Shown: one piece after another, positions 1,079 to 12,225 of the stretch
How positions within the stretch are numbered: the stretch's first letter is position 1
How the letters are laid out: each line of letters opens with the position of its first letter
Source of the DNA: Oscillospiraceae bacterium
Lineage (GTDB): Bacteria > Bacillota > Clostridia > Oscillospirales > Oscillospiraceae
Direction: 5' to 3'
DNA: 32,490 nt
Assembly: GCA_017522015.1 (NCBI GenBank)
Contig: JAFXAW010000046.1
Span: 1 to 32,490 of the forward strand
The notes under the pieces: generated by a model
What the model was told of the DNA's origin: nothing
What the model saw: the letters and a program-made list of their open reading frames with translations, nothing else
The model's database searches: none
Translations under genes and position numbers: made by a program

Positions 1079-2248
1079 ATGAATACTTTAATCGAAATGT
1101 ATGATGAGCGCGCCATTGAAAACATTTTGGCAGCGGACATGTTCCGTCCCGAGCGCATCATTTATCTGTGTCCGAAAGAAATTGCGCAGGATCGCTCCCG
1201 GCAAGACAAGCTGCGGGCCTTTTTTCAGCGCCGGGGCTGGAAGCCGGAGCTCGTTTTTATAGAAATCAGCCCGTTCAAGGCGGATGCGATTTTCCGGCAG
1301 CTGCTTGCCATCAGCAAGAAATGCCCGGACTGTGCGGTGGATGTCACCGGCGGCAGTGATGCAGCGCTGTTTGCAACCGGCATGTTTGCCGCGCAAACCG
1401 GAGCGCCGGCCTTTACATACTCCCGGAAAAAGAACCGGTTTTACAACATCAGCGGCGCTGATTTTGCAGACAATCTGAACTGCACCCTGTCCTATTCTGT
1501 CGAAGAATTTTTCCTGATGGCAGGCGGAACGCTGCTGCCCGGCCGCGTGAACAACGCAATTTTGGCGAAGTATCTGCCGGATTTTGACCCGTTTTTTGAA
1601 TGTTATCTTCGTTTCCGCCGCAAGTGGCCGGACATCGTTTCCTACATCCAGAAGATTTCCCCGGCGGAAAACCGGCAAAAGCCGCCCTTGTCGATTCAGG
1701 GAAAGTATACGGTAAAAGGTGAACGCGGCTCGCGGAATTCCGCCAACGAAGAGGCGCTGCGATCGCTTGCCGACATCGGCTTTATCCGGAATCTGAAAAT
1801 CGTGTCCGGCGAGTCGGTGGCCTTCCGCTTCCGGGATGCCACCATCCGCACCTGGCTGCGGGATGTGGGCAGCGTATTGGAGCTGTATGCCTACAAGGCC
1901 TGCATCGATTCCGGCATCTTTAACGATGTCATCAGCAGCGCGGTTGTCCGCTGGGATGACAGCAGCCAGGTTTCCAACGAAATTGATGTTATGGCCGCAC
2001 GCGGGGTTATTTCGCTGTTTCTCAGCTGCAAAACCAGCGAAATCCAGACGGAGGCGCTCAACGAGCTGGCGATCCTGCGGGATCGTTTCGGCGGAAAGGG
2101 CGCGAAAGCCGCCATCGTCTCCACGGAGCGCTGCAACGCCGCTGCGCGCCACCGCGCAGCGCAGCTTGACATCGCCGTCATTGATCTGGAAGAACTCAAA
2201 GACGGCCAGTTGCCAAATCGCCTGAAGACGATTATGAAGGTGAAGTGA
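1079..2248 (+). CDS. Card1/Can2-like CARF-nuclease protein (DUF1887 family)
   Basis: A protein of 389 aa with the layout of the DUF1887 family. Members with known function (Card1, Can2) sense cyclic oligoadenylate from type III CRISPR systems through an N-terminal CARF domain and cut DNA and/or RNA with a C-terminal PD-(D/E)xK domain. The CARF-like half (about 1-150) has the glycine-rich loop DVTGGSDAAL at 88-97. After a linker or winged-helix stretch (about 200-260) comes the nuclease core: GSVLELY at 264-270, NEIDV at 300-304 and LSCKT at 315-319. Asp303 and Lys318 are present, but the acidic residue expected two before the lysine is Ser316. The start is ATG 1079, because AAAGGCGG lies 7 nt upstream; GTG at 1061 is less likely. 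The gene stands alone: no cas gene or CRISPR array lies in 32 kb. The family call is confident; nucleotide sensing and defence are inferred. Confidence 0.82.
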   Translation: MNTLIEMYDERAIENILAADMFRPERIIYLCPKEIAQDRSRQDKLRAFFQRRGWKPELVFIEISPFKADAIFRQLLAISKKCPDCAVDVTGGSDAALFATGMFAAQTGAPAFTYSRKKNRFYNISGADFADNLNCTLSYSVEEFFLMAGGTLLPGRVNNAILAKYLPDFDPFFECYLRFRRKWPDIVSYIQKISPAENRQKPPLSIQGKYTVKGERGSRNSANEEALRSLADIGFIRNLKIVSGESVAFRFRDATIRTWLRDVGSVLELYAYKACIDSGIFNDVISSAVVRWDDSSQVSNEIDVMAARGVISLFLSCKTSEIQTEALNELAILRDRFGGKGAKAAIVSTERCNAAARHRAAQLDIAVIDLEELKDGQLPNRLKTIMKVK

Positions 2249-2396: not shown

Positions 2397-4778
2397 TTAT
2401 TGATAGCTTACCAGCTCCACGGTGTAGCCGTTCGCGCGGAGGGTATCCACCAGACCGTTGGTATTATCGAGCAGATGCGCAAGGCCGACTGCATAGAACA
2501 CCGTCTCGCCGCTTTCAAGGTACTCCATCGCCACTTTCAGCATGCCCTCGTTGCGGTCCGTATCGATGGCCTTTTCGTATTCCTCGATCAGGTGCTTGTT
2601 CTCTTCGTACTCGGCAAGTTCCTCTTCCGTCATATCCTCGTCCGGCTCAAATTCATCGGCAATCAGCTCCCGCAGGGCAGCCTCGTCGCCGGCGCACCAG
2701 AGCTCATACAGCTCCTGCGTGCCCTCCCAGTATTCCTGGAAAGTTGTTTCCACAGAACCCTCCAGCATCAAGAGCTGCAGGTCCAGAGAGAAGTTGGCAA
2801 ACATCTGAATCTGGAACATGCTGGACTCCACCTCCCGGATGGGCTTTTCCAGTTCCTCCGCCCAGGCGGTCAGGCGGCTCTCCACGCCCTGATCGCGGTG
2901 GAGGAACTGCCCCTGGCGGAGATTGAACGCGTCAATGGCATCAGACCACACGTAGGGTTTTGCCTGAAGTATAATCGAGCTGCAGTTACCGGTGGCCTTC
3001 AAAACCTGCAGGGTGCGGGCATACTCCTCTTCTTCCATCAGGCTCTCCACCGTTGTGCCGTCCGCGAAGTAATAGGCTTTGGCAAGCTCCGCCTGAAGGG
3101 CTTCATCCTCCTTCACCTGCTCATCAAACGCCTCCACATCGCACTCGAGCGCCAGCGCATCCGATGCCTCAAAGGCGTCCCGGATTTCCTGCGGCAGATA
3201 GCCGGTGCGCTCGTCGCCCACATGGATGGTGCCAAGCAGCCACATCTCCTGTCCGTCCTCACCGGTGACATGGTAGAACAGGGGCGCAGCCTTGTTTTCG
3301 GGCTCGGTTTCCGGCAGCATCTCGCCGGTGATTTCCTTATATGCCCCCTTGGCGGGCGCCTCGACAGACTGGTCCGTGCGCGCGCTCAGGGAATACTCTA
3401 CGCCCTGAATCGTATGGACGCCCTCATATTCATAACCGATGGCCACAGGCAGTCCGGTAAACTTGTCGACAGACAAATAGCCGATGCCCTTCTTCATTTC
3501 GTAATGCGAGGCTTTGTTATACAGGAAAGCGGGATCGTCCCACAGCGCGGAGCAGATCGTGTTTTGCCTGCTGTTTCCAAATTCCTCACTGAGCTCAAAC
3601 TCCAGCAGGTATACGCTGCCCATGTCGGTCACCGTCGCCTGCGTCCAGAAATCCATCGGCACGATGTCATTGTAGACAGGGGTGTACACATCCCGCATAG
3701 TTTCCCAATCCACACCGGGAATGGTTTCGGGCAGGCCGCCGTTCTCCGTGACGGTATAGCGGCCGCCAATAAAGGTCTCCTCCACCTCATAGCTTTCACT
3801 CTGTCCGTAGCCGGCCATCACAAAATCGCTGGCCACTCTTTTCAGCTGCGTATCCGCTTCGTGACCATGCATGTACAGCTGCTCGGAATAGCTTTCCACG
3901 TAGCCGGCCGCCTCTACCAACAACTCGACCGACATGTTCGTGGCCGTGGTGTTTGCCTGCTCCGTCAGCGCCGGGACACGCAGCGCCAGATAAGGCGCAT
4001 CCGCATCCGCAATGGCCTGATAGCTGTCCGCCTTCTCCGGCGCGGTCACGCTGCCGGACTCAGCCTTGGGCGTAGACTGCACCTCCAGGCGCACTTCCGC
4101 AGGGCCATAGCTGTAAGAAATGCTGTATTCCATCTCCGTGATGGCGCCGCTTGCATCCAGCAGCACCGAGCCGCCGGCCTCCGTCAGCTCCGCCTCCTCG
4201 GGAAGCGCCCAGCTTTCCGCTGCAGTGGGCTGCGCGAACAGCAGCTCGTCTCCGTCCTGCGTGATGTCACCGTAGAGCTCTGCATCCAGCAGCACAACGG
4301 GAATGTAGCGCGCGGCGGCAGCCTCGGCGTCCAGCTCCGCGGAGAATTTGAAAAGCTCCTCCGTCTTTATATAAAGCGTACCGTCCACATAGGTCTCCCG
4401 ATAGGAAATGCTCTCCGCCTCCTCCGGGTCATAATCCTCCAAATGGATGCCATAATAAAGGCTGCTGTCCATATCGGCGCAGAACGAGTCTGTGCCCAGG
4501 CCCTGATAGGTCAGGGTCTGAACGGACTGCTCAGAAAATTCCTCACCGCTCACCGTTGTATAGGTGGTGACCGTCACATCCAGACAAATATCCTCGGCGC
4601 TGTCCAGCGCTGCACGCGCCTGCGCGTAGATTTCGCTCGCGGTTGGAGCCGGCGGCTCTGTGGCAAGACCGGGATCCGGGGTGGCATCGGGCGTCGGCTC
4701 ATTCCCACAACCGGCGAGCAGGGAGCATAGCAGCGCCACGCACAGCAGCAGGGATGCGATTCTTCTGAATTTTTTCAT
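2397..4778 (-). CDS. Secreted lipoprotein with C-terminal TraB/GumN domain
   Basis: A protein of 793 aa exported as a lipoprotein: a basic N-terminus, a hydrophobic core and the lipobox LLAGC with Cys24. A Pro/Thr-rich linker (25-46) follows. Residues 47-490 look like two divergent copies of a beta-rich lipoprotein domain of the LolA/LppX or DUF6612 sort, with alternating aromatic strands near 70-145 and 320-395. The TraB/GumN domain covers about 499-793 and has both hallmark GxxH motifs, GTIH at 516-519 and GLAH at 765-768, plus Glu545. In the related Tiki proteins these motifs belong to a metalloprotease, so a peptidase role outside the membrane is possible but unproven. A very acidic helix lies near 690-725. 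The start is ATG 4778 because AGGAG sits 7 nt upstream; the ATG at 4784 would be only 1 nt from it. Monocistronic. Confidence 0.85.
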   Translation of the reverse strand: MKKFRRIASLLLCVALLCSLLAGCGNEPTPDATPDPGLATEPPAPTASEIYAQARAALDSAEDICLDVTVTTYTTVSGEEFSEQSVQTLTYQGLGTDSFCADMDSSLYYGIHLEDYDPEEAESISYRETYVDGTLYIKTEELFKFSAELDAEAAAARYIPVVLLDAELYGDITQDGDELLFAQPTAAESWALPEEAELTEAGGSVLLDASGAITEMEYSISYSYGPAEVRLEVQSTPKAESGSVTAPEKADSYQAIADADAPYLALRVPALTEQANTTATNMSVELLVEAAGYVESYSEQLYMHGHEADTQLKRVASDFVMAGYGQSESYEVEETFIGGRYTVTENGGLPETIPGVDWETMRDVYTPVYNDIVPMDFWTQATVTDMGSVYLLEFELSEEFGNSRQNTICSALWDDPAFLYNKASHYEMKKGIGYLSVDKFTGLPVAIGYEYEGVHTIQGVEYSLSARTDQSVEAPAKGAYKEITGEMLPETEPENKAAPLFYHVTGEDGQEMWLLGTIHVGDERTGYLPQEIRDAFEASDALALECDVEAFDEQVKEDEALQAELAKAYYFADGTTVESLMEEEEYARTLQVLKATGNCSSIILQAKPYVWSDAIDAFNLRQGQFLHRDQGVESRLTAWAEELEKPIREVESSMFQIQMFANFSLDLQLLMLEGSVETTFQEYWEGTQELYELWCAGDEAALRELIADEFEPDEDMTEEELAEYEENKHLIEEYEKAIDTDRNEGMLKVAMEYLESGETVFYAVGLAHLLDNTNGLVDTLRANGYTVELVSYQ

Positions 4779-4869
4779 ACCCATTCTCCTTTTCTTTTGT
4801 CTTTCTGCTTTCAAACTTCTTACTGACAGCCGGGCACAAGCATTGCGCAGCCCCCGCGGGTGCGCCCGG

Positions 4870-4898
4870 ATTATAACCCGGAGCGCATGCGCAAATAA
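4870..4898 (-). promoter_or_regulatory. Candidate promoter of the TraB lipoprotein gene
   Basis: On the - strand a perfect TATAAT (4875-4870) has TTATTT (4898-4893) 17 bp upstream. The -35 box is weak. The implied leader is about 85 nt. Confidence 0.45.
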
Positions 4899-5367
4899 CC
4901 GAAGCAATCTCATCGGAATATGCGGCAAACAGCCGCCGTTCCCCTCACAAAACGGCCGGTTTTGCGGCCGATCGCCTTGCCGCAGCCCCCGCGCCCGACA
5001 TAACCTATATATTTATCATTTCCCAACACAATTGTTAACGAGTAATATATTCATCATTATATATGCGCGCATAGATCCGGTCAAGTCAAAATAGAGAAAA
5101 AAGGAAAAAACATGGAAAAAGGTCGAAAGTCCGCAAAGCGCATTTTTGCAGCGCGGCCTTGCAAAACCGCGATTCAGGATTTACTTTGTGAAGGATGATT
5201 TCCACAACAAAAACAAGGGGCACACGGTAGAATAATTATTGTGTGCTATTATATTATTTCATAATTATGGACGATTCCACCGCTTGTCACAACCGGTGAC
5301 ATTCATAAGTGTTAGAGCCGTCGTTGTTTTCCAATCCTTAAAGTTTGAGCCACCACATCTTTCTAAA
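4899..5367. other. Non-coding AT-rich intergenic stretch with inverted repeats
   Basis: No gene is supported here. The base composition falls sharply in GC compared with both sides, especially at 5000-5090 and 5225-5275. Small dyads are visible: GCACAC/GTGTGC (5220-5225 with 5241-5246) enclosing the palindrome AATAATTATT, and TGTCAC-AACCG-GTGACA (5285-5301). A 15-base word at 5162-5176 recurs at 5947-5961. An unannotated small RNA or foreign insertion is possible, but nothing here proves it. Confidence 0.5.
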
Positions 5368-10868: not shown

Positions 10869-11960
10869 GTGGTGAAATTTGAGAATACGAATCCCGCCGA
10901 TTTCCACGGCGTTTGGGTCTTCTGCGAGCAGAGAGGCGGCGAGGTTAACCCCACTGCTTACGAGCTGCTCTCCGAGGGACGCAAGCTGGCCGACGACCTG
11001 GGCGTGGAGCTTTGCGGCCTCCTGCTGGGCGACAATGTGAAGGATCTGGCCCCCGCTTTCGGCGGCTACGGTGCCGATCGCGTGCTCGTTTGCGAGGATC
11101 CGCTGCTGAAGGAATATACCACCGACGCTTACGCCAAGGTTCTGTGCGACATGGTTATGGAGCACAAGCCGGAGGTCGTGCTCATCGGCGCAACCAACAT
11201 CGGCCGTGACCTCGGCCCCCGCTGCGCCGCGCGTCTGCACACCGGCCTGACGGCTGACTGCACGCATCTGGACGTGGATGTGGCCAAGTACAAAGAGTTC
11301 CTGAAGAGCACCTCCACCATGGATGTGGAAAAGATGCAGTGGGACATGAGCGACAAGGGTCTGAAGATGACCCGTCCCGCTTTCGGCGGCCACCTGATGG
11401 CCACCATCATCTGCCCCCGCTTCCGTCCCCAGATGTCCACCGTCCGTCCGGGCGTCATGCAGTGCGCCCCCTTCGATCAGGCCAAGGCCGACGCCTGCAA
11501 GGTCGAGCTCTGCCCCGTTACGCTCAGCGAGAGCGACCTGAAGACCAAGGTGCTGGAAGTTGTCAAAGAGGCCAAGTCCGCCGTCGATCTGATCGGCGCG
11601 GAAGTGGTTGTCTGCGTGGGCTTCGGCATCAGCAAGGACGTCAAGACCGGCATCGAGCTCGCGCAGCAGCTTGCTGACGCGCTGGGCGGCGTGGTCGGCG
11701 CTTCCCGCGCCGTCGTGGACGCGGGCTGGCTCGACGCAAGCCACCAGGTCGGCCAGACCGGCAAGACCGTCCGCCCGAAGATCTACATCGCGCTGGGCAT
11801 CTCGGGCGCCATTCAGCACAAGTCCGGCATGCAGGACTCCGAGTGCATCATCGCCGTCAACCAGAACGGCGACGCGCCCATCTTTGAGATTGCAAACTAC
11901 GGCATCGTCGGCGACCTGTTCAAGATCGTGCCCGAGATGATCGAGCAGCTCAAGAAGTAA
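10869..11960 (+). CDS. etfA: Electron transfer flavoprotein subunit alpha
   Basis: The alpha subunit of ETF (363 aa), somewhat longer than the common 320-340. The N-terminal domain (about 10-200) has the ETF alpha/beta fold. The C-terminal FAD-binding domain has VVGASRAVVDAGW, HQVGQTGKTVRPKIYIA and GISGAIQH, the loops that hold the FAD. The start is GTG 10869 with GAGGAGGG 7 nt upstream; the next codon is also GTG (10872). It is the last gene of the operon, and a strong terminator follows 22 nt after the stop. Confidence 0.93.
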   Translation: MVKFENTNPADFHGVWVFCEQRGGEVNPTAYELLSEGRKLADDLGVELCGLLLGDNVKDLAPAFGGYGADRVLVCEDPLLKEYTTDAYAKVLCDMVMEHKPEVVLIGATNIGRDLGPRCAARLHTGLTADCTHLDVDVAKYKEFLKSTSTMDVEKMQWDMSDKGLKMTRPAFGGHLMATIICPRFRPQMSTVRPGVMQCAPFDQAKADACKVELCPVTLSESDLKTKVLEVVKEAKSAVDLIGAEVVVCVGFGISKDVKTGIELAQQLADALGGVVGASRAVVDAGWLDASHQVGQTGKTVRPKIYIALGISGAIQHKSGMQDSECIIAVNQNGDAPIFEIANYGIVGDLFKIVPEMIEQLKK

Positions 11961-12023: not shown

Positions 12024-12225
12024 CGCGGGCTTGCCGCGGATATGGATTCTTGTTTGACATCCGGTGCAAGGGTTGCCTCGCTTGACATCCGGTGCAACGC
12101 TCGTCCTGTTTGACATCCGCCGCGGATACGGGTTCTTGTTTGACATCCGGTGCAAGGGTCACCTTGTTTGGTATCTGTCGTAAGGGTCACCTTGTCTGAC
12201 ACCCGCCACGGATATGGATTTATGC
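12024..12225. repeat. Hierarchical tandem repeat, 28/30-bp units in an 86-bp super-repeat
   Basis: Seven units in a row. Their starts are 12024, 12054, 12082, 12110, 12140, 12168 and 12196. Units at 12054, 12082, 12140 and 12168 are 28 bp (type A; the best begin TTGACATCCGGTGCAAGGGT). Units at 12024, 12110 and 12196 are 30 bp (type B, containing GCCGCGGATATGGATTC or a close variant). The order is B A A, B A A, B, so the B core recurs exactly every 86 bp (12033, 12119, 12205). The last two units are the most diverged. A 28-bp period does not keep a reading frame, there are no unique spacers and no -10 boxes follow the TTGACA words. The array lies between two convergent operons. Confidence 0.85.

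Follow-up and report, generated by a model that had tools for sequence, protein, structure and literature searches.

A stand-alone Can2/Card1-family nuclease with an altered CARF pocket, probably independent of type III CRISPR, in an Oscillospiraceae genome

RESULTS

The gene and its family

The window, by which we mean the whole 32,490-nt stretch of DNA that was analysed, makes up contig C46 in the assembly of a gut bacterium, which totals 1.87 Mb in 49 contigs and is 91% complete. On its + strand, an open frame at 1079–2248 encodes 389 amino acids from an ATG start to a TGA stop; an alternative GTG start is possible at 1061, and relatives start near the same ATG as the 1079 frame. The dN/dS ratio is 0.10 to 0.13 in seven of nine pairs with relatives (the seven where dS is computable), and for this reason we take the frame to be a real gene; it is under purifying selection.

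The encoded protein joins an N-terminal CARF domain and a C-terminal PD-(D/E)xK domain in one chain, which is the arrangement of Can2 and Card1 at their usual length of ~380–400 aa. The ligand-binding CARF domain extends over approximately residues 1–148 (1079–1522, + strand), with an edge that is approximate because it comes from a profile alignment to Can2, VC1899 and Card1. The nuclease domain covers about residues 264–375 (1868–2203, + strand), where Pfam Card1_endonuc matches with an E-value of 3.6e-8 and 33.5 bits (cut-off 26.4), and the PADLOC family CARF4--CARF_PDDEXK matches residues 1–383 with an E-value of 5e-40; an NCBIfam search of the 389-aa protein returned no family. A profile built from 33 relatives (alignment A1) was compared with solved chains and matched, over most of its length, Can2 (7bdv, E 4e-16), VC1899 (1xmx, E 9e-15) and Card1 (6wxw, E 8e-6), as well as 8bao, while a search with the single sequence gave weak matches to 8bao (0.005) and 1xmx (0.01) only. 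Together, these matches place the protein in the Can2/Card1 (CARF4) family with high confidence. An earlier note, made from the DNA letters alone, had proposed a CARF-like N-terminal half with a GGSD loop and a DUF1887 nuclease half with the motif NEID...CK; both halves are recovered by the profile searches, with the loop at residues 91–94 and NEID...SCK spanning residues 300–318.

The 33 rows of A1 omit repeat fetches of genomes already included (L004, L014 and L015; genome G039, the source of L014, is represented via L005), a copy split between contigs (L007), one sequence with a flagged TGA (L023) and three long fusions (L038, L039 and L095).

Flanking genes and transcription signals

The nuclease gene lies between a short-chain dehydrogenase gene (120–941, − strand) and a gene for a TraB/PrgY/GumN protein (2397–4928, − strand). 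A promoter-like sequence (TTGAAA-17-TATGAT; 1021–1049, + strand) precedes it, and a bidirectional terminator-like hairpin (2332–2363), common to the convergent TraB-family gene, follows it. The claim that the gene has its own promoter and terminator thus agrees with what is found, in the form of consensus matches only, of a kind that numbers two promoters in the window with 0.9 expected and four terminators with 2.5 expected. By eye, a similar TTGAAA...TATAAT or TATGAT sequence stands just 5′ of the relatives at L003, L006, L012, L013 and the same-genus L007. The first four of these loci have no upstream gene family in common within 8 kb (for L012, within a contig of just 4.6 kb), and because their upstream families differ, the promoter seems to move together with the nuclease gene.

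No cas family is among the PADLOC matches listed for the window (25 of 37 families; 38 window ORFs matched), and no CRISPR-like array is among the direct repeats listed (minimum 22 nt, maximum distance 400), in line with the earlier observation that neither lies nearby. Elsewhere in the window, two tandem 86-nt units that are 78% alike occupy 12033–12204, between + strand frames ending at 11960 and starting at 12214, and they carry shorter repeats containing TTTGACATCC.

The surroundings of the relatives are mostly dissimilar. Among 25 loci of close relatives, 13 of the 300 pairs have one or more flanking gene families in common within 8 kb, by mechanical gene calls, and four pairs have four or more (L009/L011, L072/L075, L073/L074 and L082/L083), the last three of these each within a single genus. 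One downstream family of locus L003 is also present at L006, and two are at L008, so that not every locus is unrelated to the others; two copies from genus g5 (L077 and L079) have zero flanking families in common. For 70 proteins flanking 19 loci, up to two on each side as called by a mechanical ORF finder, the Pfam families listed (the top 25 of 79 by count) include none that occurs in more than two proteins. The PADLOC matches beside relatives comprise 18 families, each found once and scattered, giving no evidence of a defence island. A constant partner gene or a defence island was rejected, as among these flanks no Pfam family listed exceeds two proteins and no PADLOC family recurs. Searches of viral contigs, plasmids and phages, sensitive mainly to close relatives, yielded no relative. 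Overall, the gene looks like a one-gene accessory unit that has no fixed partner. In G088, a second genome from this genus, two contig ends each carry part of the gene (L066 and L067, matching query residues 1–286 and 287–388), and the neighbours of each side are on separate contigs.

A rearranged nuclease site

The nuclease motif of solved Can2/Card1 proteins, NExD...ExK, is kept in its first half and altered in its second. NEID (residues 300–303; 1976–1987, + strand) supplies E301 and D303, which correspond to SthCan2 E276 and D278 when the latter are counted as the acids of NExD. The ExK half reads SCK (residues 316–318; 2024–2032, + strand), with Ser in place of Glu, in 33 of 33 rows, as opposed to ECK in the solved relatives shown. 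Residues E268, N300, E301, D303, S316, C317 and K318 are identical throughout the 33 rows. Eleven residues beyond the ExK lysine stands Glu329 (2063–2065, + strand), a candidate for a migrated metal-binding acid; it is Glu in 31 of the 33 rows, absent in two SCK rows, and Lys in 7bdv, 1xmx, 8bao and 6wxw.

In a wider count, Glu occurs at 329 in 42 of 44 SCK rows and Lys in all six ECK rows (p 2e-6, with rows that are related to each other). That count omits L023 and genome G020 (L038/L092), which have SCK and Glu and would fit, as well as G188 (SAK with Glu), G347 (SCS), G276 (odd), G444 (ECK, with the rest unaligned) and, among solved structures, the Card1 variant 6xl1 and the chain 8z4i, whose alignment was not listed. 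The second carboxylate therefore seems, from aligned positions, to have moved from the ExK strand (Glu to S316) to the following stretch (E329). Such a shift has precedents: a moved carboxylate is reported for the CCGG-family restriction enzymes, with the pattern PDX21-53KX12-13E (PMC4652773), and for NgoMIV (PMC1189080), and the nuclease domain of Can1 is described as superposing on NgoMIV and AgeI (PMC6981274).

Further, SCK with Glu is also present in relatives from type III genomes, as in G344, where the gene stands beside the RAMP genes. The use of SCK as a mark of orphans was dropped, since relatives in type III genomes carry it too. Because those relatives share the Ser/Glu swap, the nuclease is probably active, and with moderate confidence we regard it as an active enzyme with a moved acid.

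An acidic CARF pocket

Four residues of Can2 (S19, T42, K99 and Y118) are reported to contact cA4 and to be conserved in Can1 and Can2 (PMC7969007). In the profile alignment they correspond to D9, P32, D94 and T113 of the window protein, with K99 counted as the K of TGGTK. The loop that carries this position is TGGSD here (residues 90–94; 1346–1360, + strand), so that its GGSD stands against the GGTK of Can2 and D94 occupies the place of the cA4-contacting Lys99 of SthCan2. In Can1, the equivalent K90 is described as forming a salt bridge with a phosphate, and K90E abolished cA4 binding (PMC6981274). The basic residue that follows strand 4 and contacts cA4 in Can2/Card1 is absent from all 33 rows of A1, which have Asp or Glu instead. 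Moreover, E6, D9, R11, E14, N15, D94, T113 and S115 are invariant in 23 of 23 close relatives; these eight residues therefore suggest that a specific pocket is maintained and not lost.

The loop varies with the presence of type III genes. In ten genomes that have both a relative and RAMPs, some of them represented by short or partial CARF matches (G385 and G559), the loop ends in Lys in eight (TGGTK, TCGTK or TGATK); the other two have TTGTT (G364) and TGGEE (G516). In 36 RAMP-less genomes of the family and phylum with a readable site, the residue is Asp or Glu in 30, Pro in 5, Arg in 1 (G557) and Lys in none. Lys at the cA4 position is thus found in 8 of 10 type III genomes and 0 of 36 RAMP-less ones (Fisher p 2e-7, with related rows; G056 and G444, whose site is unreadable, are omitted). 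In a tree of 45 rows, midpoint-rooted for drawing and with several long rows, all 35 acid-pocket rows (the 33 aligned relatives and two others) fall into a single clade, at 100/99 support and in all 200 bootstrap trees. With the acid-pocket rows confined to a single lineage, the association of lysine loss with type III absence, strong in the counts, may rest on few evolutionary events.

A second type of orphan was seen in one family, f87, at L101, L102, L103 and L105 (genomes G484, G331, G386 and G411), with the CARF loop SNG[NH]P, uncharged at the place of the lysine, and a nuclease site with SCK and Glu.

Type III CRISPR and other sources of signal

The earlier note left two possibilities, namely that the protein responds to a type III locus elsewhere in the genome or that it answers a different nucleotide signal as a stand-alone switch. 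A search of the own assembly, 91% complete, gave no match to Cas10 (PF22335), RAMP (PF03787) or Cas1 (PF01867) at E ≤ 0.001, in keeping with an orphan, and a type III locus elsewhere in the genome was rejected within that part; G088 likewise has no Cas10, RAMP or Cas1 match. In a family sample of 200 genomes, own included (of which 129 have a completeness of 90% or more and a contamination of 5% or less), a relative is present in 31, RAMPs in 4 (G063, G091, G134 and G191) and Cas1 in 58. A relative and RAMPs never occur together in one genome, an overlap of zero that is by itself not significant because RAMPs are so rare. Since the gene persists in many family genomes that have no RAMP match, the window nuclease can be regarded with good confidence as independent of type III CRISPR, and the first of the two possibilities loses ground. 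In a phylum-wide sample of 388 genomes, a relative occurs in 18, RAMPs occur in 133 and 10 genomes have both.

Cas10-domain matches were found in 21 of the 200 family genomes, 9 of them above the cut-off. Those in two genomes with a relative (G007 and G057) were set aside, as the frames scanned there are GGDEF proteins. The Cas10 palm family PF22335 also matches a GGDEF protein at L047:1069–1911, with 27.4 bits against a cut-off of 27, and Cas10 counts from PF22335 alone are therefore inflated. The own genome has no mCpol or SMODS match. SMODS occurs in 4 of the 200 family genomes, none with a relative (control positive in 3 of 14), and mCpol in none of the 200 (a weak control, positive in 1 of 14 and never over the cut-off); mCpol and CBASS cyclases were rejected as the signal source, having no co-occurrence with relatives in these 200 genomes.

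A relative within a type III-B operon

One member of the acid clade, from genome G516 (loop TGGEE), is encoded in a type III-B operon at L123:584–10887, apparently as its first gene. The order is CARF, CorA, Cmr1, Cas10, Cmr3, Cmr4, Cmr6 and Cas6 on one strand, with unidentified frames between them and a leucyl-tRNA synthetase gene upstream on the same strand. CorA, present at 53 of 1113 type III loci, or about 5% (PMC11229360), seems to be a signature of SAM-AMP signalling in type III-B systems (PMC10600005, PMC12669027). In the Cas10s of that pathway, the acids D70 and E151 are reported to be retained close to the methionine part of SAM, to suit the net positive charge that the ligand has there (PMC10600005). 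Among solved structures, the G516 Cas10 is best matched by 9lq5_B, which has D70, E151, D328 and D329 at the exact residue numbers of B. fragilis Cas10, and since these numbers agree exactly, it is probably that protein. The G516 Cas10 has D75, E159, E308 and D309 at these four positions, and GGED versus the GGDD of the SAM-AMP synthase. Among the G516 neighbours scanned there is no Pfam match to NrN, DEDD or lyase proteins, the enzymes that usually degrade SAM-AMP, and the G516 CorA has no match to solved structures.

The pairing of CorA with a SAM-AMP-type Cas10, by which a SAM-AMP effector is recognised, is found for G516 only, as the window genome has no Cas10 match. In a replication of the link with CorA, the gene was found in 0 of 20 other relatives of G516, and G516 and the window protein are in different subclades of the 45-row tree. 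The position of the G516 gene beside CorA and a predicted SAM-AMP maker hints at a SAM-derived ligand; SAM-AMP as the ligand of the acid clade is a lead held with low confidence, not a result.

DISCUSSION

Proposed mechanism and alternatives

We consider the window protein to be a stand-alone member of the Can2/Card1 (CARF4) family, a nuclease gated by a ligand, independent of type III CRISPR and no longer tuned to cyclic oligoadenylate, a reading that these alignments and genome counts support with a probability of roughly 0.6. By homology, two CARF domains would pair into one pocket, and a bound ligand would rearrange both PD-(D/E)xK domains, which might then cut DNA and/or RNA without sequence choice; such cutting would slow or kill the cell, most likely under phage attack or another stress. 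A different signal is favoured indirectly by the lost cA4 contacts, and the case draws on the Lys to Asp change in the CARF loop and the Glu to Ser change in the nuclease motif, neither of which the earlier note pointed out. The ligand is thus probably not cyclic oligoadenylate. The earlier interpretation accordingly stands in the orphan identity of the protein and, through the lost cA4-contacting residues, indirectly in its answer to a different signal; its other option, a type III locus elsewhere, is not supported. A nucleotide as the signal and a role in defence or stress are presumed, and confidence in any named ligand is low.

It is very unlikely that the protein still answers cyclic oligoadenylate, with a type III system in the missing part of the genome or on plasmids or phages. 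Its family membership, the ~9% of the genome that is unseen and the one relative inside a type III operon speak for this explanation, and they are outweighed by the zero RAMP overlap in a family sample that includes 129 well-completed genomes, by the negative result in the second genome of the genus, by the change of all four contacts conserved in Can1 and Can2, and by the loss of cA4 binding when the charge at this place is reversed in Can1 (PMC6981274). Improbable too is a dead nuclease, the protein being a ligand sponge, a ligand-degrading enzyme or a regulator: every row has Ser in place of the catalytic Glu of ExK, as such a function would allow, yet E268, E301, D303 and K318 are invariant, Glu329 may stand in for the lost acid, and relatives in type III genomes have the same arrangement. 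Activity may nonetheless be modest, because the orphan VC1899 is reported to have only weak RNase activity that is not regulated by cA4 (PMC7969007), and orphans are thus perhaps poorly active.

Two further explanations concern the ligand. The protein might be a stress-triggered nuclease that, like the divergent CARF domain of RtcR, recognises the ends or fragments of RNA, for instance tRNA halves bearing a 2′,3′-cyclic phosphate. CARF domains of the RtcR type are mostly without the basic residue and free of CRISPR (PMC4012209), and that of RtcR binds tRNA 5′ halves (PMC7790460); however, no RNA-repair partner travels with the gene, no Pfam family listed being present in more than two of the 70 neighbour proteins, and an acidic pocket fits a polyanion poorly, so that we hold this explanation to be rather unlikely. 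Slightly better placed, and still doubtful, is the proposal that acid-pocket CARF proteins bind a SAM-derived, net-positive ligand, SAM-AMP or a relative of it, here from a source other than Cas10. It gains from the G516 gene, apparently in one operon with the SAM-AMP effector CorA and a Cas10 whose D75 and E159 match B. fragilis D70 and E151, from the lack of NrN-, DEDD- or lyase-like Pfam matches among the neighbours scanned there, and from the same charge argument having been made and tested for Cas10 (PMC10600005). It loses by resting on a single locus that none of the 20 other G516 relatives repeats, by the orphan genomes having no known SAM-AMP maker, and by the place of G516 outside the subclade of the window protein with a Cas10 that has GGED in place of GGDD.

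An evolutionary extension of that proposal is equally doubtful. The clade of CARF nucleases might have exchanged the negative cyclic oligoadenylate for a partly positive nucleotide derived from SAM through the change of lysine to acid; the G516 member would still work beside CorA and a SAM-AMP-making Cas10, and the Oscillospiraceae members would serve as one-gene immune switches, fed by a Cas10-free source or by a SAM derivative arising when phages attack the SAM of the host. Phage T3 makes a SAM-destroying enzyme.

Relation to known systems

Like Can2 and Card1 (CARF4, DUF1887; PF09002), the window protein has their domain order, length, NExD and CK motifs and a full-length profile match; unlike them, it was found without a type III partner, has Asp94 for Lys99 and changes at three other cA4 contacts, and carries SCK with Glu329 instead of ECK. 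As a DUF1887 protein found with neither a type III match nor the conserved cA4 contacts, it is an orphan of the VC1899 kind. VC1899 of Vibrio cholerae (1XMX) is likewise an orphan of the same family in which the cA4 site is described as not conserved (PMC7969007), but it retains a basic Arg96 and ECK, whereas the window protein has a different pocket that is conserved across an entire clade. RtcR-type CARF proteins resemble it in mostly lacking the basic residue and in occurring outside CRISPR (PMC4012209, PMC7790460), but the output of RtcR is an AAA+ domain with a helix-turn-helix and not a nuclease domain. With the CorA/SAM-AMP type III-B systems it is connected through the clade member in G516, which adjoins CorA and a SAM-AMP-type Cas10, although the window genome gave neither a Cas10 nor a RAMP match. 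The CCGG-family enzymes NgoMIV, Cfr10I and AgeI share the shift of a carboxylate from the strand to a later position (PMC4652773, PMC1189080); the spacing is K-X10-E in the window protein as against K-X12-13-E, and no sequence specificity is expected of it.

Orphan CARF proteins as such are already known. Makarova 2014 found cas1 and cas10 to be missing from 9 of 145 genomes with CARF genes, listed genes of the VC1899 family that have no link to CRISPR, and suggested that families lacking the basic residue have other ligands (all PMC4012209). The parts of the literature consulted mostly present CARF effectors as sensors of the cyclic oligoadenylate that Cas10 makes. Among the matches listed in the open-licence literature, there is no acid-pocket clade of CARF4, no Ser/Glu swap in the CARF4 family and no CARF protein that reads SAM-AMP.

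A clade that keeps its effector, loses the cA4 contacts and has no detectable Cas10 would point to another alarm molecule and to another maker of it. The signature of the clade (an acid at Can2 K99, with D9, R11, T113 and S115 in the close clade) means that a single purified protein would suffice to test this idea, and a first candidate ligand is suggested by the G516 operon. Moreover, searches that require ExK would score nucleases with the Ser/Glu swap as dead.

Longer frames of ~970–1510 aa with a CARF4/PD-(D/E)xK-like part were also seen, at L092:9515–13753, L095:6069–10247, L093:9308–12196 and L107/L133 (G444). They are in genomes without RAMP matches, and may be larger orphan sensors.
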